Assembly (NCBI RefSeq): GCF_017742835.1
Contig: NZ_CP072392.1
Location: forward strand, 1,968,385-2,032,384
DNA from: Aquabacter sp. L1I39
GTDB taxonomy: Bacteria; Pseudomonadota; Alphaproteobacteria; Rhizobiales; Xanthobacteraceae
Direction of reading: 5' to 3'
Length of the DNA: 64,000 nt
Below, one piece after another: positions 1 through 13,111 of this stretch. The notes under the pieces are model-generated. The model ran no database searches and was not told the DNA's origin. It saw only the letters and a list, made by a program, of their open reading frames with translations. Both the position numbers and the translations under genes were made by a program. Within the stretch, counting starts at the first letter, position 1, and every line of letters starts with the position of its first letter.

Positions 1-831
1 GGGGCCGATCTCCCGCATGTCGGCCATGGTGGTCTCGGTCTCCTCCACGAAGTTGACCTTCATGCGGGAGATGAGCGCCTGACCGAAGGCGTAGATCTGC
101 TCCATGATCCAGGGCATCTGGAGCACGCTGACATATTCATCCTCCGGCCCGCGCGGATCGGCGGCCAGATAGGCCGCGCAATGCTTCAGCAGTGCGCCGG
201 AGGTCAGCATGGCGAGCTTGGGATGGGAGGTGGTGCCCGACGTGGTGCACAGGATGGCCACGTCCGAGCCCTTCCCCTCCCCGACCATGCGGTCATAGAG
301 GCCGGGGTCCGCAGCGGCCCGGGCGGCGCCGGCGGCTTCCACGGCGGACAGCGCGACGAGCCGGGGATCGTCATATTTGCGCAGGCCGCGCGGGTCCGCA
401 TAGACGATGTGCTGGACGGTGGGGATGCGGTCTTCCAGCTGGAGCAGCTTGTCCACTTGCTCCTCATCCTCGGCGAAGATCACCTTCACATCCGCATAGG
501 TGATGAGATAGGCGACTTCTTCGGCGAGCGCGTCGCGATAGATGCCAAGGCTCATGCCGCCCACCGCATGGGCGGCGATCTCGCCCATCAGCCATTCCGG
601 CCGGTTGTCGCCGATGAGGGCGATGACATCGCCCCTCTTGGTGCCGAGGTCGGCGAGGCCGAGCGCCATGTGCTGCACGCGCTCGGACACCTGGCGCCAC
701 GTATAGGCGTTCCAGATGCCGAGATCCTTCTCGCGCAGCCAGATGTCGTTGCCGTGGTTGCGGGCATTCAGCGCCAGCAGCTTGGGAAAGGTGTCGTGGA
801 CGGAAAGGTCCGGGGGCGGAGTCATGCTCAT
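1..831 (-). CDS. AMP-dependent acyl-CoA ligase, long-chain type (3' end outside window)
   Basis: This gene runs off the left edge, so only the first 277 codons are present. It encodes the N-terminal part of an AMP-forming acyl-CoA ligase, which activates a carboxylic acid to its CoA thioester. The adenylate P-loop appears near residues 197-205 as TSGTTSHPK, a variant seen in long-chain-type ligases, and WIMEQIYAFGQ-like sequence follows. The ATG at 831 lies 8 bases after the stop of the upstream ABC ATPase gene, with a GAGAGG ribosome site, so the two genes are one operon. Pairing of such a ligase with a LivG-type ATPase is typical of uptake operons for fatty or aromatic acids in alphaproteobacteria. 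The substrate cannot be deduced. Confidence 0.88.
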   Translation of the reverse strand, partial: MSMTPPPDLSVHDTFPKLLALNARNHGNDIWLREKDLGIWNAYTWRQVSERVQHMALGLADLGTKRGDVIALIGDNRPEWLMGEIAAHAVGGMSLGIYRDALAEEVAYLITYADVKVIFAEDEEQVDKLLQLEDRIPTVQHIVYADPRGLRKYDDPRLVALSAVEAAGAARAAADPGLYDRMVGEGKGSDVAILCTTSGTTSHPKLAMLTSGALLKHCAAYLAADPRGPEDEYVSVLQMPWIMEQIYAFGQALISRMKVNFVEETETTMADMREIGP

Positions 832-839
832 GGCCTCTC

Positions 840-1712
<873 letters not shown>

Positions 1713-1762
1713 ATTTCCCTCCCGAAGCCCGCTCATTTGGCGGGGTGGCTTCTCTGGCCGTG

Positions 1763-1777
1763 TCTCACATTGTGAGA
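1763..1777. promoter_or_regulatory. operator-like palindrome 1 (IclR-fusion regulon, candidate)
   Basis: The sequence is TCTCACATTGTGAGA, seven-base arms around one central base with no mismatch. It lies in the divergent intergenic region, about 50 bp before the ABC ATPase start. An almost identical element is centred 105 bp away, close to ten turns of B-DNA. The regulator assignment rests on position only. Confidence 0.6.
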
Positions 1778-1867
1778 TGATGTTGAGGTGATTATCTAGC
1801 GGGCGTTCGGTTCTTTCAAGGCCGATGCCACCCACCGTGCGGAATTATTGCGAATGGGCCGATTCTG

Positions 1868-1882
1868 TCTCACATTGTAAGA
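1868..1882. promoter_or_regulatory. operator-like palindrome 2, abutting the start of the IclR-fusion gene
   Basis: The sequence is TCTCACATTGTAAGA, differing from palindrome 1 at one base. The flanking TGTCT and AGACA extend its symmetry. It ends one base before the ATG at 1884, so a bound protein would cover the ribosome site and start of the downstream gene. That suggests autoregulation. No clear Shine-Dalgarno is visible, so translation may be leaderless or start at a later codon. Confidence 0.6.
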
Positions 1883-1883
1883 C

Positions 1884-3500
1884 ATGGACGATATTGAACA
1901 TGAAAACGGAGTGCCGAAGGGCGCCCAGAGTCTTGGTCGGGCCATTGCCCTGTTGCGGGTGGTGACCCATGCCGCGCCCCGCGCGGTGCGCCTGGCTGAT
2001 CTGATTCAGGCCACGGGACTGTCCAAAGCCACCGCGCACCGCCTGGCCACGACGCTCGTCCATGAGACGCTGCTGGCCTATGACAGCGAGAGCCGCCTCT
2101 ATCGCCTCGGCTCCTTCTTCGCCGGCTTTGGTCCAGCCGATCCCCGTCACGCGGGGGCAGACGAGACGCAAGTCCCCGCGCCCTCCCGTCCCGGAAAATA
2201 TAGCGGCACCAAGATTCCACTGGCCCATCTCCTGTGCGACCGCCACTTGGCGGTCAAGCGCGCCCTGCCGGCCATGATCCATGAGACCGTCTCGGGTCAG
2301 ACCTCCGAGCTGAGCTTTGGAAAGCTCGCGGAATACTCGTCTCGCTTCGCCCGCGTGCTGGCGAACGCAGGCATACGGAAGGGCGACCGGGTTGCCGTCC
2401 TCTTGCCCAAGGGCGTTGAGCTGGTCATCACCGCGCTCGCCATCTGGCGGATCGGGGCGGTCTATATGCCGCTCTTCTCCACCTATTCCCCCGCCGCCGT
2501 GGAGGCCCGGCTCAAGGCCAGCGGCGTCAAGGCTATTGTCGCCAACCGTTTCCTCGTGGAACGTGCCTCCCGCTACATCACCGGCAAGACCTTCGTGTGC
2601 CTCATCGAGGGCGACCAGATTAATCGCCTGGATGGCAAGGCGACGCAGTTCTGGTCGTCCATCTATGCCTCCGAGCCGCTGGAAACGGTGGAGACCTATG
2701 GCGAGAACGATCCCTTCATCATGACCTATGCTCCGAGTTTCGTCGAAGCAAAGCTCGGTCTGCTCACTCCCGTGCGCGCCCTGGGCAGCATAGAGCAGTA
2801 TATGCGCGTCGCCATCGATGTAAGGGACGACGATGTCTACTGGAACATGGCCGATCAGGGCTGGGAATACGGTATCTATTATGGCCTCATCGGTCCGCTC
2901 CTGATCGGATGTGCAATCCTGTTCTGCGATGGCCCGTATGACGTCTCGCAGGGCTATCGCGTCCTGTCGAAATTCCGGGTCACCAACCTCACGGCGGCCC
3001 CGTCCCAGATCAAGGCGTGGCGGCGGGGTGATCCCAACGATGCCGCCGCGCCCTTCGCCATCCGCCAAGTCACGGTGGGCGGCGAGCCGCTGCCGCTCGA
3101 TGTGGTGTCCTGGGTGACGCAGAAGCTGGAAGTGCCGCTGATCAACCAATATGGCACCCGCGAGACCGGCATGATCGTGGGGATGACCTATGATCCCCGG
3201 GATCCGGCCTTCTCGCAGCGCGCCTCCGTCGGACGCATCATGCCGGGCTTCGCCTTGACCGTTCTGGACAAGAGCGGCGCAACGCTGCCCGCAGGGGTGG
3301 AGGGCCTGCTGGCGGTGGACGTGAAGCGCTCACCGCTGTTCTGGTTCCGCTCCTATTTCAAGGACGAGGCCAACACCAAGATGCGCTTCCAGTTCGGCAG
3401 CGACTTCTATGTTCTTGGGGATACAGGTCTCATCGATGAAGACGGGCTCGTCCACTATAGCGGGCGCGCGTCACACGCCATTTTGATGCAGAAAGACTGA
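1884..3500 (+). CDS. IclR-type HTH fused to a truncated, degenerate acyl-CoA synthetase domain; candidate acyl/acid-sensing regulator
   Basis: This is one continuous 538-residue frame. Residues about 14-77 match the winged-helix DNA-binding domain of IclR regulators (LGRAIALLR, GLSKATAHRLATTL, YRLGS). Instead of the usual IclR effector domain, residues about 112-538 resemble the large domain of AMP-forming acyl-CoA synthetases: RKGDRVAVLLP, WRIGAVYMPLF, NMADQGWEYG, the A5-like YGTRET at 424-429 and the A7-like GDTGLIDEDG at 512-521. The ATP-gripping P-loop, normally TSGTTGxPKG, is replaced by YAPSFVEAKLG around 282-292. The protein ends at the hinge (SGRASHAIL), so the mobile C-terminal domain with the catalytic lysine is missing. 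Acyl-CoA synthesis is therefore unlikely. It is divergent from a transporter/ligase operon. The inferred role is a regulator that uses a retired enzyme fold as its ligand sensor. Confidence 0.82.
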   Translation: MDDIEHENGVPKGAQSLGRAIALLRVVTHAAPRAVRLADLIQATGLSKATAHRLATTLVHETLLAYDSESRLYRLGSFFAGFGPADPRHAGADETQVPAPSRPGKYSGTKIPLAHLLCDRHLAVKRALPAMIHETVSGQTSELSFGKLAEYSSRFARVLANAGIRKGDRVAVLLPKGVELVITALAIWRIGAVYMPLFSTYSPAAVEARLKASGVKAIVANRFLVERASRYITGKTFVCLIEGDQINRLDGKATQFWSSIYASEPLETVETYGENDPFIMTYAPSFVEAKLGLLTPVRALGSIEQYMRVAIDVRDDDVYWNMADQGWEYGIYYGLIGPLLIGCAILFCDGPYDVSQGYRVLSKFRVTNLTAAPSQIKAWRRGDPNDAAAPFAIRQVTVGGEPLPLDVVSWVTQKLEVPLINQYGTRETGMIVGMTYDPRDPAFSQRASVGRIMPGFALTVLDKSGATLPAGVEGLLAVDVKRSPLFWFRSYFKDEANTKMRFQFGSDFYVLGDTGLIDEDGLVHYSGRASHAILMQKD

Positions 3501-3751: not shown

Positions 3752-4408
3752 ATGGCGCGCACGGTCGGTTCCAACGGCGCGCGCACCGCCCAGGCCATTC
3801 GCCAGGCGGGCGTGCAGCTCATCTACAAGCACGGCTATGAAGCCATGAGCCTGCGGCAGCTCGCGGCCGAGGTGGGGCTGCAATCGGGCTCGCTCTACAA
3901 ATATTTCGACAACAAGCAGAGCCTGCTGTTTGACATCGTACGCGACCACATGGAGGACCTCATCACGCGGGCGGAGGCCGCTCTTGCGGGTGTGGAAGGG
4001 CCTCTCGACCGGCTCAGGGCCTTCGTGGACTTCCACCTGCGCTACCACATGACGCGCAACGCCCATGTCTTCATCGCCAATATGGAGATCCGCTCACTCG
4101 ATGGAGAGCATCGGGCCGTCGTGGTTGACATGCGCCAGCGCTACGAGGCGGTGCTGGAGGATGCGCTGAAAGCGGGGGCGGCAGCGGGCGTGTTTCGCGT
4201 GCCGGAGCCGCGGGTGGCCACCTATGCCATCATCTCCATGCTTACCGGCATCTGTACCTGGTATCGTGCTGACGGCCGTCTCAGCCAGGACGAACTGGTG
4301 CGCATCTATACCGACCTGGTCGTGGAAGGCGTCGCCCTTCCCGACGCAGCCAAGCGCGCCGCTCCGGCCCCGCTGGCGACGGTGTCCCGCCGAAAGGTGA
4401 AAGCCTGA
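3752..4408 (+). CDS. TetR/AcrR family transcriptional regulator
   Basis: This is a 218-residue one-domain repressor. The N-terminal helix-turn-helix is clear at about residues 10-57 (AIRQAGVQLIYKHGYE, LRQLAAEVGL, GSLYKYFDNKQSLL). The remainder is an all-helical effector-binding domain, as usual for TetR proteins, which release DNA when a small molecule, often an acyl-CoA, is bound. The ATG at 3752 follows GAGAGAG and places the HTH at the normal distance from the N-terminus; upstream in-frame codons encode unrelated sequence. It lies directly before the acyl-CoA carboxylase operon in the same direction. Similar operator-like motifs precede both units, so it probably controls that operon and itself. 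The effector is unknown. Confidence 0.9.
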   Translation: MARTVGSNGARTAQAIRQAGVQLIYKHGYEAMSLRQLAAEVGLQSGSLYKYFDNKQSLLFDIVRDHMEDLITRAEAALAGVEGPLDRLRAFVDFHLRYHMTRNAHVFIANMEIRSLDGEHRAVVVDMRQRYEAVLEDALKAGAAAGVFRVPEPRVATYAIISMLTGICTWYRADGRLSQDELVRIYTDLVVEGVALPDAAKRAAPAPLATVSRRKVKA

Positions 4409-4461: not shown

Positions 4462-4585
4462 CCAAGCCGACCAGGATCGGCACGGGAGGATCTATAAGCG
4501 CACGCGGCACACGGTCATGCCGTCATGACCCTATGTTAACCGGCGCAGACTTTCCGCTCCCGCAACATGTATGGGTGAGGCGCGC

Positions 4586-6193
4586 ATGGCGATCATCGAG
4601 GACGCGGTCGACCGGCGGTCGGAGGCCTTCCGCCGGAACAGCGAGGCATTGGCCGCGAGCGTCGCGGAGTTGAGGGGCCATGTGGAGCGCATCGCCGAGG
4701 GCGGTGGCGCCGTGGCGCGCGAGCGGCACCTCAAGCGCGGCAAGCTGCTCCCGCGCGACCGCATCCGCACCCTGCTGGATACCGGCTCGCCCTTCCTGGA
4801 ACTCTCGCAGCTTGCCGCCTTCGGCATGTATGGCGACGACGTGCCCGCTGCCGGCATCATCACCGGCATCGGCCGGGTGGCGGGCCGCGAATGCATGATC
4901 GTGGCCAACGACGCCACGGTGAAGGGCGGCACCTACTTCCCCATGACGGTGAAGAAGCACCTGCGGGCCCAGGCCATCGCGAGGGAAAACCATCTGCCGT
5001 GCATTTATCTCGTCGATTCCGGCGGCGCGAACCTGCCCAATCAGGACGAGGTCTTCCCCGACCGCGAGCATTTCGGCCGCATCTTCTTCAATCAGGCCAA
5101 CATGTCGTCGGAGGGCATCGCCCAGATCGCCGTGGTGATGGGCTCGTGCACCGCCGGCGGCGCCTATGTGCCGGCCATGGCCGATCAGTCCATCATGGTG
5201 AAGAATCAGGCCACCATCTTCCTCGCCGGGCCCCCTCTGGTGAAGGCGGCCACCGGCGAGGTGGTCACCGCCGAGGAGTTGGGTGGGGCCGACGTGCACA
5301 CCCGCACCTCCGGCGTTGCCGACCACATGGCCGAGAATGACGCCCACGCCTTGGGCATCGCCCGCACCATCGTGGCCGACCTCAACCGGGTGAAGAACCA
5401 CGCCCTCGACATCCGCCCGCCCAAGGCGCCGCTTTATGATGTCGAGGACATTTACGGCATCGTCTCTGAGGATCCCAAGAAGCCCTTCGATGTGCGCCAG
5501 ATCATCGCTCGCATCGTGGACGGCTCGGAGTTCGACGAGTTCAAGCCGCTCTATGGCACTACGCTGGTGACGGGCTTTGCCCGCATCTTCGGCTATCCGG
5601 TGGGCATCATCGCCAATAACGGCATCCTGTTCTCGGAAAGCGCGCTGAAGGGCGCGCACTTCGTGGAATTGTGCTGCCAGCGCAACATCCCGCTGGTCTT
5701 CCTGCAGAACATCACCGGCTTCATGGTGGGCCGGAAGTATGAATCCGGCGGTATCGCCAAGGATGGCGCCAAGCTGGTCAATGCGGTGTCCTGCGCGTCC
5801 GTGCCGAAGTTCACGGTGGTGATCGGCAATTCCTTCGGCGCCGGCAATTACGGCATGTGCGGCCGCGCCTATGATCCCCGCTTCCTCTGGATGTGGCCCA
5901 ATGCCCGCATCTCGGTGATGGGCGGCGAGCAAGCCGCCAATGTGCTCGCCCAGGTCAAGCGCGACGGGATCGAGGCCAAGGGCGGCAGTTGGCCGGCGGA
6001 GGACGAGGCCGCCTTCAAGGCGCCCATCCAGGCCCAGTATGAGCGCCAGGGCCATCCTTATTATTCCTCTGCCCGCCTGTGGGACGACGGCGTCATCGAT
6101 CCGGCCGACACCCGCATGGTGCTGGCGCTCGCTCTGTCCGCTTCCCTCAACGCCCCTCAGAAGGACACGCGCTTCGGCGTGTTCCGCATGTGA
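4586..6193 (+). CDS. mccB: acyl-CoA carboxylase beta subunit, methylcrotonoyl-CoA carboxylase type
   Basis: This 535-residue protein is the biotin-dependent carboxyltransferase subunit of a methylcrotonoyl-CoA carboxylase-like enzyme. It moves CO2 from carboxybiotin to the acyl-CoA in leucine/isovalerate breakdown. Family hallmarks include [41 protein letters not shown] and [19 protein letters not shown]. The ATG at 4586 has GTGAGG six bases upstream; an ATG five codons earlier has no ribosome site. The stop overlaps the next start (TGATG). The gene order (beta subunit, hydratase, alpha subunit, HMG-CoA lyase) matches the liuBCDE order of Pseudomonas. Geranyl-CoA carboxylase is the main alternative, but the HMG-CoA lyase favours the leucine route. 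Confidence 0.93.
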
Positions 6194-6969
6194 TGAGCCT
6201 TCTCGTTTCCCGAGAGGACGGGGTCGCTGTCCTCACCCTCAACCGCCCCGAAGTCCACAATGCCTTCGACGATGCGCTGATCGCCGCTTTGACCGCCGCC
6301 TATGGCGAGGCCGGGGCCGATCCGGCCGTCAAGGCCATTGTGCTGCGGGCGAACGGTCCCTCCTTCTGCGCCGGGGCCGACCTCAACTGGATGCGCCGCA
6401 TGGCGGCCTATTCCCGAGACGAGAACCTGGCGGATGCCGGTGCGCTGGGTGAGCTCATGCGCACCATCGACACCTGCCCCAAGCCCACTTTGGCGCGGGT
6501 GCACGGCTCCGCCTTTGCCGGCGCCATCGGGCTCATCGCCTGCTCGGACATCGCGGTGGCGGTGCCGGAGGCGCTGTTCGCGGTCACCGAGGTGCGGATC
6601 GGACTCATCCCGGCGGTCATCAGCCCCTATCTTGTGCGCGCCATGGGCGCCCGGCAGGCGCGGCGCTACTTCCTCACCGCCGAGCGCTTCTCGGCGGAGA
6701 CCGCGCTGGCGCTGGGCCTCGTGCATGAGGTGGTGCCCGCCGAGGAATTGGATGGCGCCATCGCCCGCCATCTCAAAGCCCTGTCCGCCGGCAGCCCGGC
6801 GGCGCAGGCGGCCACTAAGGATCTCGTCGCGGCGGTGGATCGCCCGCTTTCCGCCGAGGTCATCGTCGACACCGCCGCCCGCATCGCCGACCAGCGCGCC
6901 AGCGCCGATGGTCGCGAGGGGCTCACCGCCTTCCTGGAAAAGCGCAAACCACAATGGGGGCAGGCATGA
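6193..6969 (+). CDS. enoyl-CoA hydratase, probable methylglutaconyl-CoA hydratase
   Basis: This is a 258-residue crotonase-fold protein. SLLVSREDGVAVLTLNRPEVHNAFDD opens the family pattern in short form, the oxyanion loop FCAGADLNWM lies around residue 60 and GSAFAGAIGLIACSDIAVA follows. In this operon position the expected reaction is hydration of 3-methylglutaconyl-CoA to HMG-CoA, between the carboxylase and the lyase. The ATG shares its A with the stop codon of the carboxyltransferase gene, and the 3' end overlaps the next start (ATGA), so translation is coupled on both sides. Substrate assignment comes from context; the fold assignment is firm. Confidence 0.9.
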   Translation: MSLLVSREDGVAVLTLNRPEVHNAFDDALIAALTAAYGEAGADPAVKAIVLRANGPSFCAGADLNWMRRMAAYSRDENLADAGALGELMRTIDTCPKPTLARVHGSAFAGAIGLIACSDIAVAVPEALFAVTEVRIGLIPAVISPYLVRAMGARQARRYFLTAERFSAETALALGLVHEVVPAEELDGAIARHLKALSAGSPAAQAATKDLVAAVDRPLSAEVIVDTAARIADQRASADGREGLTAFLEKRKPQWGQA

Positions 6970-8984
6970 CCGGAACCCTCCACCCGCGGCCCATCCGCAC
7001 CCTTCTCGTGGCCAATCGCGGCGAGATCGCCGTGCGCGTCATGCGCACCGCCCGCGCCATGGGGCTGAAGACCATCGCCGTCTATTCGGAGGCCGATGCC
7101 CGCGCCCTCCATGTGGCGAGCGCCGACGAGGCCTATCCCATCGGCCCGGCGCCCGCCCGCGAGAGCTATCTGCGCATTGATGCCATACTGGAGGCGGCAA
7201 AGGCTTCGGGCGCGGATGCCATCCATCCCGGCTACGGCTTTCTCTCGGAGAATGCCACCTTCGCCAAGGCTTGCGCCGAGGCCGGCATCGTCTTTGTCGG
7301 CCCGCCGGCGTCCGCCATAGAGGCCATGGGCTCGAAGAGCGCGGCCAAGGCACTGATGGAAAAGGCCGGCGTGCCCCTGGTGCCCGGTTATCATGGCGCG
7401 GACCAGGACCCCGCTTTGCTGGCGCGGGAGGCGGCGCGCATCGGCTATCCCGTGCTCATCAAGGCCTCCGCCGGCGGCGGTGGCAAGGGGATGAAGGTGG
7501 TGCGGTCCGCGGAGGAGTTCGCCGATGCGCTCGCCTCTGCCCAGCGTGAGGCCCGCAACGCCTTTGGCGATGACCGGGTGCTGGTGGAGAAATATCTCAC
7601 CCGCCCGCGCCATATCGAGGTGCAGGTCTTCGCCGATACGCACGGCAACGTGGTCTATCTCCACGAGCGCGACTGCTCCATCCAGCGCCGCCACCAAAAG
7701 GTGGTGGAGGAGGCTCCCGCCCCCGGCATGAGCCCGGAACGGCGCGCTGCCATGGGCCAGGCGGCGGTGGATGCCGCCCGGGCGGTCGGCTATGTGGGCG
7801 CCGGTACGGTGGAGTTCATCGCCGAGGGCGACGACTTCTTCTTCATGGAGATGAACACCCGCCTCCAGGTGGAGCATCCGGTCACCGAGGCCATTACCGG
7901 CCAGGACCTGGTGGAGTGGCAGATCCGCGTCGCCCGTGGAGAGGCGCTGCCGCTGGCCCAGGCGGATATTCCGCTCATGGGCCACGCCATCGAGGTGCGC
8001 CTCTATGCCGAGGATCCGGAGAAGGACTTCCTGCCCCAGGTGGGCCGGCTCGACCATCTGGTCCTGCCGCAGGCCATTCCTGGCGTTCGGGTGGATTCCG
8101 GCGTGCGCGCCGGTGACACGGTCTCCATCCATTACGACCCGATGATCGCCAAGATCATCGCGGAGGGGGCCGACCGGGCGGAGGCGCTGGGCCGGCTGCG
8201 GGCGGCGCTTGCGGCGACGCAGGTGGTGGGGCTGTCCACCAATCGCGCTTTCCTGCAATCCATCCTCGCGGAGCCAGCCTTCGCGGCTGCCGACCTGGAC
8301 ACCGGCTTCATCGAGCGCCACCGCGATACGCTCCTGCCGCCGCCCGCTCCCGTGGACGATCGCTCCCTCGCGCTCGCCGCCCTCTATGTGCTGCTGGACG
8401 AGGCCCGCGCTTCCGCGTCTTCCGCGGACCCGGCCGATCCCTGGTCGCCCTGGGGGCAGGCGCCGGGCTGGCGTCTCAATCGCTCGGCCTTCGTGGACCT
8501 GACTTTCGCCGACCGGGACACCCGCATCGCCGTGCGCGCCCATTATGCGGCGGACGGCTTCCTTCTGGACCTGCCGGGCGGACGCCTCGCCGTGGAGGGC
8601 AAGCTCTCCGAGGACGGCACGCTCATCGCCCGCCTCGCCGGCGTCCGGCTGACCGCCCGCGTGGTGCGCTCCGGCGCTCGGCTCACCGTCTTCGCGGCGG
8701 GCGCCGAGCGCAGCCTCGACCATGTGGATCCGCGCCTCGCCAGCATCGAGGCCACCGGCACCGCCGGCCGCCTGGTGGCGCCCATGCCGGGCACCATCAC
8801 CCGCCTGGCGGTGGCGGTGGGCGATCTGGTGGAGAAGGGCGCCGCCTTGGTGGTGGTGGAAGCCATGAAGATGGAGCATACGGTGGCCGCGCCCCGCGCC
8901 GGGCGCGTCGCGTCCATCCGCTTCGCCGTCGGCGACCTGGTGGATGATGGCACCGAGCTCCTGGTTCTGGAGGATCCGGCATGA
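6966..8984 (+). CDS. mccA: acyl-CoA carboxylase alpha subunit (biotin carboxylase plus biotin carrier)
   Basis: This 672-residue protein is the biotin-carboxylating partner of the beta subunit two genes upstream. The order is a biotin carboxylase N-domain ([19 protein letters not shown]), an ATP-grasp domain with the glycine-rich [12 protein letters not shown] and [17 protein letters not shown], a middle region that docks the beta subunit, and a C-terminal biotinyl domain with the biotin lysine in VEAMKMEH. The length is normal for methylcrotonoyl-CoA carboxylase alpha. The ATG at 6966 overlaps the hydratase stop, and the end overlaps the lyase start. Carboxylation uses ATP and bicarbonate in the cytosol. 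Confidence 0.94.
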
Positions 8985-9889
8985 GCCGTCCCGCTGAAGT
9001 GCGAATCGTCGAGGTTGGCCCGCGCGACGGGCTCCAGAACGAAAAGGGCATCGTGCCGCTGGCCGCCAAGGTGGCGCTGATCGATGCCCTGGCCGAGGCC
9101 GGCCTCACGGTGGTCGAGAGCGGCAGCTTCGTCTCGCCCAAATGGGTGCCGCAAATGGCGGATACCGCCGAGGTGATGGCCGCCATCACGCGCAAGCCGG
9201 GCGTGCGCTATCCCGTCCTGGTGCCCAATATGAAGGGCCTGGAGGCCGCGCTCGCCTGTCAGGTGGACGAGGTGGCCGTTTTCGGCGCCGCGTCGGAGGC
9301 CTTCAGCCAGAAGAACATCAATTGCTCCATCGCCGAGAGCCTGGAGCGCTTCCGCCCCGTGGTGGCGGCGGCGCTGGAGGCCGGCATCCTGGTGCGCGGC
9401 TATGTGAGCTGCGTGCTCGGCTGCCCCTATCAGGGGGAGGTGCCGGTGGCCAAGGTGGTGGAGGTGTCCGAAGCCCTGGCGGCCATGGGCTGCTATGAGA
9501 TTTCGCTGGGCGACACCATCGGCGTCGGCACGCCCGACAAGGCCAAGGTGATGGCCTCGGCGGTGGCCTCCGCCATCGGCGTCGCGCGCACCGCCGTGCA
9601 TTTCCACGACACCTACGGCCAGGCGCTGGGCAATGTGCTCGCGTGCCTGGACGCCGGCATTCATGTGGTGGACAGCTCGGTGGCGGGCCTTGGTGGCTGT
9701 CCCTATGCCAAGGGGGCCTCGGGCAACCTCGCCACCGAGGACTTGGTCTATATGCTGGACGGCCTCGGCGTTTCCACCGGCGTCGACCTGGACAAGCTCG
9801 CGGCCGCCGGCCGCACCATCACCGCCGCGCTCGGCCGCGAACCCACCTCCCGCGTCGCCCAGGCGCTGGCCGCCCGCTGCGCCGCCTGA
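8981..9889 (+). CDS. mvaB: hydroxymethylglutaryl-CoA lyase
   Basis: This is a 302-residue TIM-barrel lyase that splits 3-hydroxy-3-methylglutaryl-CoA into acetoacetate and acetyl-CoA, the last step of leucine catabolism. Near the N-terminus is [12 protein letters not shown], which holds metal and substrate ligands. [13 protein letters not shown] follows, and the catalytic-cysteine loop [16 protein letters not shown] sits near residue 230. The start overlaps the preceding stop (ATGA). This is the last gene of the operon; the following gene is convergent. An isovaleryl-CoA dehydrogenase gene, needed for a complete leucine pathway, is not in the window. Confidence 0.95.
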
Positions 9890-11902: not shown

Positions 11903-13111
11903 TCACTTCACCAAGGGACAGCCGCTTTCCGCCTCGGGAATGTAGGCCTCCTTGCCGGGGATGGTCTCGACCAGCGTGAGATAGTCCCACGGCCCCTTGG
12001 ACTGGGCCGGCTTCTTCACCTCGAACAGGTACATGTCGCCGAAGACGCGCCCATTCTTCCCGATGCGGGCATTCTTCATCATCATGTCGTTGACGGGCGT
12101 GGCGCGCATCTTTTCCGCAACCTTGTCGGCATCGTCGGTGCCCGTGTCCTTGACCGCCTGCAGGTAATGACGGACAGCCGAATAGACGCCGGCCTGGTTC
12201 ATGGACGGCTTGCGGCCGGTCTTCTCCTCGAACGTCTTCGACCAGGCCCGCGTTCCGTCATTCATGTCCCAGTAGAAGGAATTGGCCATGGTGAGCCCTT
12301 GCGCGACCGGCAGGGTCAAGGCGTGGATGTCGTTGATGTTCAAGAGAAGGCCCGCGAGGGTCTGGCCGCCCTGGGGCAAGCCGAATTCATTGGCCTGCTT
12401 TACGGAGTTGATGGTGTCGCCGCCGGCATTGGCGAGCGCCACCACCTTGGCCCCAGAGCCCTGCGCCTGGACCAGGAAGGAGGAGAAGTCGGAGGTGGCC
12501 AGCGGCACGCGGACCCCGCCCTTCACCGTGCCGCCCAGCGCCTTGACGGTCTTGCTGGCTTCCTCTTCCAGGGAATGGCCGAAGGCATAGTCGGCGGTGA
12601 TGAAAAACCAGGTCTTGTCGCCCTTGGCCACCAGCGCCCGCGCCGTTGCGGCGGAAACCGAATGGGTATCCCAGGTCCAGCTGAAGCCATAGGGGCTGCA
12701 GGCCTTGCCGGTCAGGTCCACCGCGCCGGGGCCGGACATGAGGAAGATGCGCTTACGCTCCTTTGTAATGCCCTGTACCGCCAGGGCGGCGGCGGAGTTG
12801 GGGACGTCGGCGATCACGTCCACCTGCTCGGTGTCCACCCACTTGCGGGCAATGCCGGCGGCGACATCGGCCTTGTTCTGGTGATCCGCCACGACGATCT
12901 CAATGGGAACGCCGTTGATGGCATTGCCGAACTCCTGCGCCGCGAGCCGCGCGGCCAGGGCCGAGCCCTCGCCATTGATGTCGGAATAGACGCCGGTGAG
13001 GTCCGACAGGACACCGATCTTGATCTTGCCGTCGGACATCTGGGCAAGAGCTGGCGCCGCCCATCCACTCAGTGCGGCGCCGAGCGCGACCGCGATCATC
13101 TGACCCTTCAT
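11903..13111 (-). CDS. ABC transporter substrate-binding protein, branched-chain amino acid (Liv) family
   Basis: This 402-residue periplasmic binding protein has a signal peptide, with probable cleavage after the ALA in GWAAPALAQ. The mature part starts KIKIGVLSDLTGVYSDINGEG, the usual opening of type-I periplasmic binding proteins. Family members bind amino acids, amides, aromatic acids or short carboxylates. There are no permease or ATPase genes beside it, so it must work with a transporter encoded elsewhere, or act as an orphan. It lies 45 bp downstream of the 3-hydroxybutyrate-dehydrogenase-like gene, apparently in the same sigma-54-dependent unit, which suggests a ligand related to that substrate. 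Confidence 0.9.
   Translation of the reverse strand: MKGQMIAVALGAALSGWAAPALAQMSDGKIKIGVLSDLTGVYSDINGEGSALAARLAAQEFGNAINGVPIEIVVADHQNKADVAAGIARKWVDTEQVDVIADVPNSAAALAVQGITKERKRIFLMSGPGAVDLTGKACSPYGFSWTWDTHSVSAATARALVAKGDKTWFFITADYAFGHSLEEEASKTVKALGGTVKGGVRVPLATSDFSSFLVQAQGSGAKVVALANAGGDTINSVKQANEFGLPQGGQTLAGLLLNINDIHALTLPVAQGLTMANSFYWDMNDGTRAWSKTFEEKTGRKPSMNQAGVYSAVRHYLQAVKDTGTDDADKVAEKMRATPVNDMMMKNARIGKNGRVFGDMYLFEVKKPAQSKGPWDYLTLVETIPGKEAYIPEAESGCPLVK

Follow-up and report, generated by a model that had tools for sequence, protein, structure and literature searches.

Regulators whose sensor domain derives from an enzyme are already known. BzdR of Azoarcus, according to the accessible part of its description, joins an HTH-XRE domain to a shikimate-kinase-like domain and senses benzoyl-CoA, and in built chimeras its response was improved by the loss of enzyme activity (PMC3602430). 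The MocR/GabR proteins, in the accessible accounts, consist of a GntR winged helix followed by an aminotransferase fold, bind PLP in the case of MocR, and lie divergent to or beside their target genes. The biotin ligase/repressor BirA combines a winged helix with an adenylate-forming fold and controls its own pathway via an acyl-adenylate. Canonical IclR regulators, members of a group that may activate or repress, carry the HTH_IclR DNA-binding domain and the effector domain PF01614.

Here we analyze a window of 64,000 nucleotides from Aquabacter sp. L1I39 (contig NZ_CP072392.1, positions 1,968,385 to 2,032,384), in which an HTH_IclR domain is fused to the large domain of an acyl-CoA synthetase (ACS). 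The fusion resembles BzdR as an HTH joined to an enzyme fold without catalysis, that of BzdR sensing a pathway compound (PMC3602430, accessible part), but has another DNA-binding domain and another enzyme fold (HTH_IclR and AMP-binding in Pfam). With MocR/GabR, as far as the accessible accounts go, it shares a large enzyme-derived effector behind a winged helix and a divergent or neighboring position of the target genes, while both the winged-helix family and the enzyme fold differ, and it has lost its catalytic motifs where MocR binds PLP. BirA, unlike the fusion, is still an active enzyme and belongs to another fold family. The HTH_IclR domain is common to the fusion and the canonical IclR regulators, but PF01614 was not found and an ACS fold stands in its place, so that the protein is not a full member of the IclR family. 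It appears to work like BzdR and MocR and is a member of neither. No earlier description of an IclR-ACS or ACS-fold regulator was found in the accessible portion of the open literature; within that portion, an enzyme-derived sensor behind an HTH is already known from BzdR and MocR, and the novelty would lie in the ACS fold of the sensor.

An IclR winged helix fused to a truncated acyl-CoA synthetase

The features of the locus are collected in Table 1. An earlier note, made from the letters of this DNA, had proposed a single uninterrupted frame in which an IclR winged helix precedes an ACS-like domain with a destroyed P-loop, no C-terminal lysine domain, and a preserved fold, giving an effector different from that of standard IclR proteins, and on all these points it proved correct. 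The frame is open, and the same protein is coded, with no internal stop, in three relatives at 91, 87, and 82% identity. Pfam matches HTH_IclR at residues 16 to 67 (40.7 bits; cutoff, 22) and AMP-binding at residues 128 to 478 (172.2 bits; cutoff, 29.9); AMP-binding_C is not listed for the protein, nor is PF01614 at E values up to 1. The C terminus coincides with the A8 hinge (GRASHAILMQKD), a clean loss of the C-domain. In the predicted structure, the winged helix has a pLDDT above 90 over most of its length, linker residues 86 to 99 fall below 50, and the ANL large-domain fold is kept, in line with the AMP-binding match.

Table 1. Features of the locus (positions in the window)
Feature	Position	Strand	Basis or remark
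FadD-like acyl-CoA ligase gene, 5' part	about 1..813	-	rest outside the window
livG, ABC transporter ATPase, first operon gene	840..1712	-	Pfam; start from sequence
Operator 1 (predicted), GTCTCACATTGTGAGAT	1762..1778		just past predicted livG start site
Promoter-like site for livG: TTGAAA, 17 nt, GATAAT	1791..1819	-	between both operators
Operator 2 (predicted), GTCTCACATTGTAAGAC	1867..1883		abuts regulator ATG
IclR-ACS fusion gene (putative regulator)	1884..3500	+	open frame, 538 aa plus stop
IclR winged-helix DNA-binding domain, residues 16-67	1929..2084	+	Pfam HTH_IclR
Variable linker, residues 79-112	2118..2219	+	omega 0.23-0.93
ACS large domain, predicted catalytically dead, residues 113-538, without C-terminal lysine domain	2220..3497	+
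Destroyed P-loop, residues 282-292 (YAPSFVEAKLG)	2727..2759	+	alignment with relatives
Arg426, replacing Thr of the YGxTE motif	3159..3161	+	Arg in 49/52 truncated proteins listed
TetR-family regulator, just downstream of fusion	3755-4408		TetR_N and TetR_C_24 (Pfam)

The top NCBIfam match of the sensor domain is PRK04319 acetate--CoA ligase (209 bits; cutoff, 729), with MbcS further down the list (135 bits; cutoff, 850), and its nearest working relatives, judged by these matches, are acetate/MbcS-like synthetases. The nearest solved structure, 5u2a from Brucella canis, belongs to a synthetase of 564 residues, the alignment of which shows no IclR part, whereas the window protein lacks the P-loop and the C-domain.

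In a protein search, IclR and AMP-binding parts without a C-domain were found in at least 51 other proteins (P0002 to P0052), and at least 31 full-length fusions retain the C-domain (P0055 to P0068 and P0122 to P0138). The totals of 52 truncated and 31 full-length fusions are lower bounds because they were taken from the best 120 of 177 and the best 120 of 1313 matches. Among the matches listed, identity to the window protein was 83 to 93% in the nearest five relatives, 67 to 69% in P0007 to P0017 (Xanthobacter included), and 47 to 52% in P0018 to P0052 (Azospirillum included); P0053 and P0054 are partial and without the IclR part.

Catalytic motifs are lost and pocket residues are kept

The P-loop TSGTTGxPKG was intact in all 19 ordinary relatives compared, which were hand-chosen from the search matches, and in none of the 31 full-length or 52 truncated fusions among the matches listed. 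The SGKxxR lysine motif gave the same counts (19/19, 0/31, and 0/52, respectively). Near-miss P-loops occur among the full-length fusions (YTSGRPGAPKG in P0067 and YTSSIIGRPKG in P0061), some of which also have a lysine in RTPKGKVHR. On the evidence of these motifs, the ACS domain of the fusion is judged to be catalytically dead.

Trp327, Tyr329, Gly400, Glu401, and Gly424 are invariant across the 52 truncated proteins listed, and Pro402 and Asp513 are each retained in 51, so that the Gly-Glu-Pro adenine loop and the ribose Asp persist in 51 or 52 of 52. The hinge Asp is replaced by Ser in 51/52. These residues, placed by motif and not by coordinates, we take to be equivalent in position and role to those of Acs. 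Arg528, part of the former ATP site, persists in 8 of 17 Xanthobacteraceae-type and 32 of 35 Azospirillum-type proteins listed. The earlier note had named GWEYG within the substrate-side motifs that remain; this motif is not simply ancestral, since Glu328 is special to the Xanthobacteraceae clade (17/17 listed, with Ala in 35/35 Azospirillum-type proteins) and ordinary enzymes have Ala in 17 of 19. Position 399 is Gly in 14/17 Xanthobacteraceae-type and Val in 35/35 Azospirillum-type proteins listed. The new Arg426 may bind the carboxylate or phosphate that the lysine and P-loop, now lost, used to hold.

In 11 hand-chosen pairs, the Nei-Gojobori omega of the ACS domain was 0.039 to 0.159 throughout, within the range of the operon ligase (0.023 to 0.237) and lower than that of the IclR domain in 10 pairs, the exception being L049-L125 (0.066 versus 0.050). 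The dead domain is thus under purifying selection and has a maintained function.

What this function is can be read in two ways. The domain could sense a small ligand, or it could be a dimerization or loop-forming scaffold or a protein-docking site that binds none. The loss of the P-loop and C-domain, and the difference of positions 328 and 399 between the two clades, would suit a scaffold; purifying selection by itself is no proof of ligand binding, and the conserved ligand-site residues could alternatively serve folding. A scaffold would scarcely need a near-invariant adenine loop, ribose Asp, and Trp/Tyr/Gly pocket in the 52 truncated proteins listed, nor a Thr-to-Arg exchange at the old phosphate site common to 49 of them, and we regard a role without ligand as rather unlikely.

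The fusion gene is divergent to a liv/ligase operon

In all 30 loci examined, from two families, the fusion gene is divergent to livG, a FadD-like ligase gene follows livG, and the order onward is livH, livM, SBP, livF, and PaaK-like ligase as far as the stretches reach (those of L125 and L137 end early). The homologues of like domain order beside liv/ligase operons that the earlier note had called for thus exist. In the window, livG starts with the ATG at 1712, preceded by GGGAGGGAAAT. The note's claim of a divergent operon encoding a true ligase and an ABC ATPase is borne out by livG and the FadD-like ligase, with the reservation that the ligase lies only partly in the window: its full match spans 1967317 to 1969197 of the genome, and the rest of it, together with livH, livM, SBP, livF, and the PaaK-like ligase, is outside. 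The suggestion that a retired domain rules the operon of its own working relative did not survive, as the ligases of the operon fall outside the group of the sensor domain. The FadD-like ligase ends in AMP-binding_C_3, and its top NCBIfam matches are FadD-like; it was ruled out as the parent enzyme by its different ligase group and C-domain family.

The operon ligase (E up to 1e-190) is present in every fusion-bearing genome (14/14 Xanthobacteraceae and 40/40 Azospirillaceae). Control by the fusion protein is evidently dispensable, since 91 of 105 ligase-bearing Xanthobacteraceae genomes and 10 of 50 in Azospirillaceae have the operon without the regulator. On a ligase tree of 50 rows, the presence of the fusion changes 8 times, at least 5 of which are forced by well-supported branches. 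Of 8 loci on the Xanthobacter side that lack the gene, 7 (L139, L140, and L142 to L146, not L141; matched by eye at the first residues) have a carboxyltransferase frame, the counterpart of the window frame beginning at 4571, that starts 1.0 to 1.4 kb past livG. By this arrangement, these loci would represent a natural empty site.

Paired palindromes flank the predicted livG promoter

Two palindromes, the predicted operators, lie in the intergenic region. A pair was scored when both sites together had at most 7 mismatches to the consensus. With the Xanthobacteraceae consensus GTCTCAYATTRTGAGAC, the pair was found 104 to 106 bp apart in 13/13 loci; with that of Azospirillaceae, GGTCCATAWTRTGGACC, it was found 116 to 118 bp apart in 16/17. 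In total, 29 of the 30 loci have a pair at the fixed spacing of their family; the miss is L130, in which the first site is weak and the second position is taken by a perfect palindrome, GTTCCAAAATATGGAAC. The half-sites differ between the families, and the Azospirillaceae spacing is one helical turn longer: at 10.5 bp per turn, 105 and 116 bp make 10.0 and 11.05 turns. A genome with a full-length fusion, G337, has an Azospirillum-type pair 138 bp apart (13.1 turns), equalled by none of 2000 shuffles. The helical-phase argument thus comprises three spacings (105, 116, and 138), the last of which misses a whole number of turns by 1.5 bp.

The window pair was equalled by 0 of 5000 shuffles, and at up to 1 mismatch, the pattern occurs in the whole 5.39-Mb genome only at the two window sites; the reversed pattern, as a genome-wide control, gave no site at this threshold. 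No site under 5 mismatches of 17 was found in any of 20 operon loci without the regulator, scanned from 60 bp inside livG to 400 bp before it, although this absence is partly circular because the consensus was built from loci with the gene, and the 20 loci were hand-chosen, the DNA before livG being unrelated in some.

All 30 loci have a promoter-like site for livG, with 9 or 10 of 12 matches, in the interval separating the operators. Operator 1 starts past the -10 element by 11 to 13 nt in Xanthobacteraceae and by 20 to 24 nt in Azospirillaceae, and 45 to 50 nt separate the end of operator 2 from the -35 element (distances for L130 are taken from its weak site). In all 13 Xanthobacteraceae loci, operator 2 extends right up to the regulator's start codon and leaves no room for an ordinary ribosome-binding site, for which reason the regulator mRNA may be leaderless.

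Repression is suggested by the position of operator 1 beyond the predicted livG start site, and autorepression by that of operator 2 at the start codon of the regulator; the phased spacing speaks for a loop that contains the promoter. The protein could instead be an activator of the operon or act in both senses, and operator 2, lying upstream of the livG promoter at 45 to 50 nt before the -35, occupies a position from which activation is feasible. We consider this unlikely, because in 30/30 loci operator 1 is downstream of the predicted start site (the site of L130 being weak), as fits repression, and because the operon is retained in genomes without the regulator.

Proposed mechanism

In our judgment, the fusion protein is probably a repressor, likely a DNA-looping one, whose ACS-derived effector domain senses an acid or acyl derivative. 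DNA binding, repression, looping, the ligand, and its class are all inferred. The protein would be a one-component transcriptional regulator with a retired acyl-CoA synthetase of the ANL superfamily as effector domain. Its dimers would occupy the two palindromes (1762-1778 and 1867-1883) and probably make contact across a ten-turn DNA loop enclosing the livG promoter, and the bound state would repress the regulator gene as well as the operon, which encodes an ABC uptake system and two ligases. A pathway carboxylic acid, its adenylate, or its CoA thioester would enter the old acyl/adenylate pocket and release the repression. Fold and operon together suggest as ligand an acid that the operon products take up and activate, or the activated form of that acid.

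The retained Gly-Glu-Pro adenine loop and ribose Asp (51 or 52 of 52 listed) would also suit an adenine nucleotide, AMP or ATP, as an energy signal in place of a pathway acid. Such a signal is in our view very unlikely, given that the triphosphate-holding P-loop has been destroyed and that the tie to one acid-uptake/ligase operon suggests a pathway signal. An acid-sensing repressor would be the regulator of the liv/ligase operon of Azospirillum and Xanthobacter relatives, and the large ANL ligase superfamily would be a source of acid-sensing regulator domains.

Distribution and proposed order of events

Whole-genome searches found the fusion gene in 14 of 248 Xanthobacteraceae genomes (4/47 genera) and 40 of 79 Azospirillaceae genomes (2/13 genera), and not in one genome only, as set beforehand for the case of deletion debris. 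In Azospirillum brasilense Sp7, the gene is D9621_RS28610. Among 385 genomes of the class, 12 gave a match; the IclR part is covered in 3 of them (the window's own, G111, and G337), and in the remaining 9 the match starts at query residue 121 or later; among 398 genomes of the phylum there were 9, namely the window's own and 8 without the IclR part that start at residue 115 or later. A full-length fusion occurs in 1 of 39 genomes of G337's family.

Deletion debris, a decaying pseudogene, can be rejected: the cut falls at a domain edge and the occurrence is patchy (8 changes on the ligase tree), but the protein is conserved across two families with no internal stop, an omega of 0.039 to 0.159, and matching operators. 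Conservation beside the operon, purifying selection, and the joint absence of operators and gene point to a regulator and not to debris, and the fusion protein is very probably a working one.

In a large-domain tree of 112 rows, a quick tree with several open forks, the ordinary enzymes fall on one side of a branch with an SH-aLRT of 99, the truncated fusions form one clade (support, 100), and the full-length fusions lie in between, with the fused P0056 beside the ordinary side (support, 82). The ordinary row closest to the fusions is P0140, an intact synthetase without the IclR part. An order of one fusion, P-loop decay, and then C-domain loss would fit this tree. Residues 1 to 110 of P0061, searched against long proteins for other IclR-synthetase fusions, gave 29 matches, 27 from the same family and 2 IclR regulators with PF01614 plus another domain; the reach of this search is short, as it recovered 0 of the 52 truncated proteins, and a second, independent origin is possible.

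We lean, with some reserve, towards reading these proteins as a new one-component regulator family built on an ANL sensor fold. In it the stages of origin would be preserved (the intact sister P0140, at least 31 fusions with a decayed P-loop and a C-domain, and at least 52 truncated ones with a new Arg), the truncated form would control a liv/ligase operon by loops between phased operators, and the half-sites would have changed between the two bacterial families with the helical phase retained. BzdR, in the accessible part of its description, was explained with synthetic chimeras, whereas the IclR-ACS proteins include natural full-length, truncated, and unfused sister forms. The step from enzyme to regulator argued there from built chimeras (PMC3602430) could here be followed in natural stages side by side, which bear on whether the earliest fusion still ligated and when ligand-controlled DNA binding set in. 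They also raise the question of whether the new Arg substitutes for the lost lysine and P-loop.

Neighboring genes and clues to the ligand

Genes for mmsB and an isobutyryl-CoA dehydrogenase accompany the locus in 8 of 17 Azospirillaceae loci, and together with the leucine-degradation-like genes of the window they hint at a branched-chain acid as ligand. In two Azospirillum loci without the fusion (L147 and L148), livG directly follows the mmsB and isobutyryl-CoA dehydrogenase genes co-directionally, as though two operons had become one when the regulator was lost, an arrangement that again hints at branched-chain acyl metabolism. The PaaK-like ligase and the tannase/feruloyl esterase of G337 hint at an aromatic acid. 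The operon's binding protein gave no clue to the ligand, its solved relatives being distant and their names giving none.

In G337, the gene divergent to the full-length fusion is that for the tannase/feruloyl esterase, and the operator pair lies before it. The fusion there (L051, 9221-17327) stands between the esterase gene and an NMT1-type ABC transporter accompanied by an amidase gene, another operon for a related regulator.

In the window, the TetR-family gene lies ahead of the carboxyltransferase gene, which it may regulate. The carboxyltransferase (Pfam) opens a run at 4571-9889 that reads like leucine/isovalerate degradation; the later genes of the run, as judged by eye, are those of an enoyl-CoA hydratase, a biotin carboxylase, and an HMG-CoA-lyase-like protein. 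A minus-strand frame at 11903-13111, some 8 kb away from the fusion, reads like a branched-chain-type substrate-binding protein.
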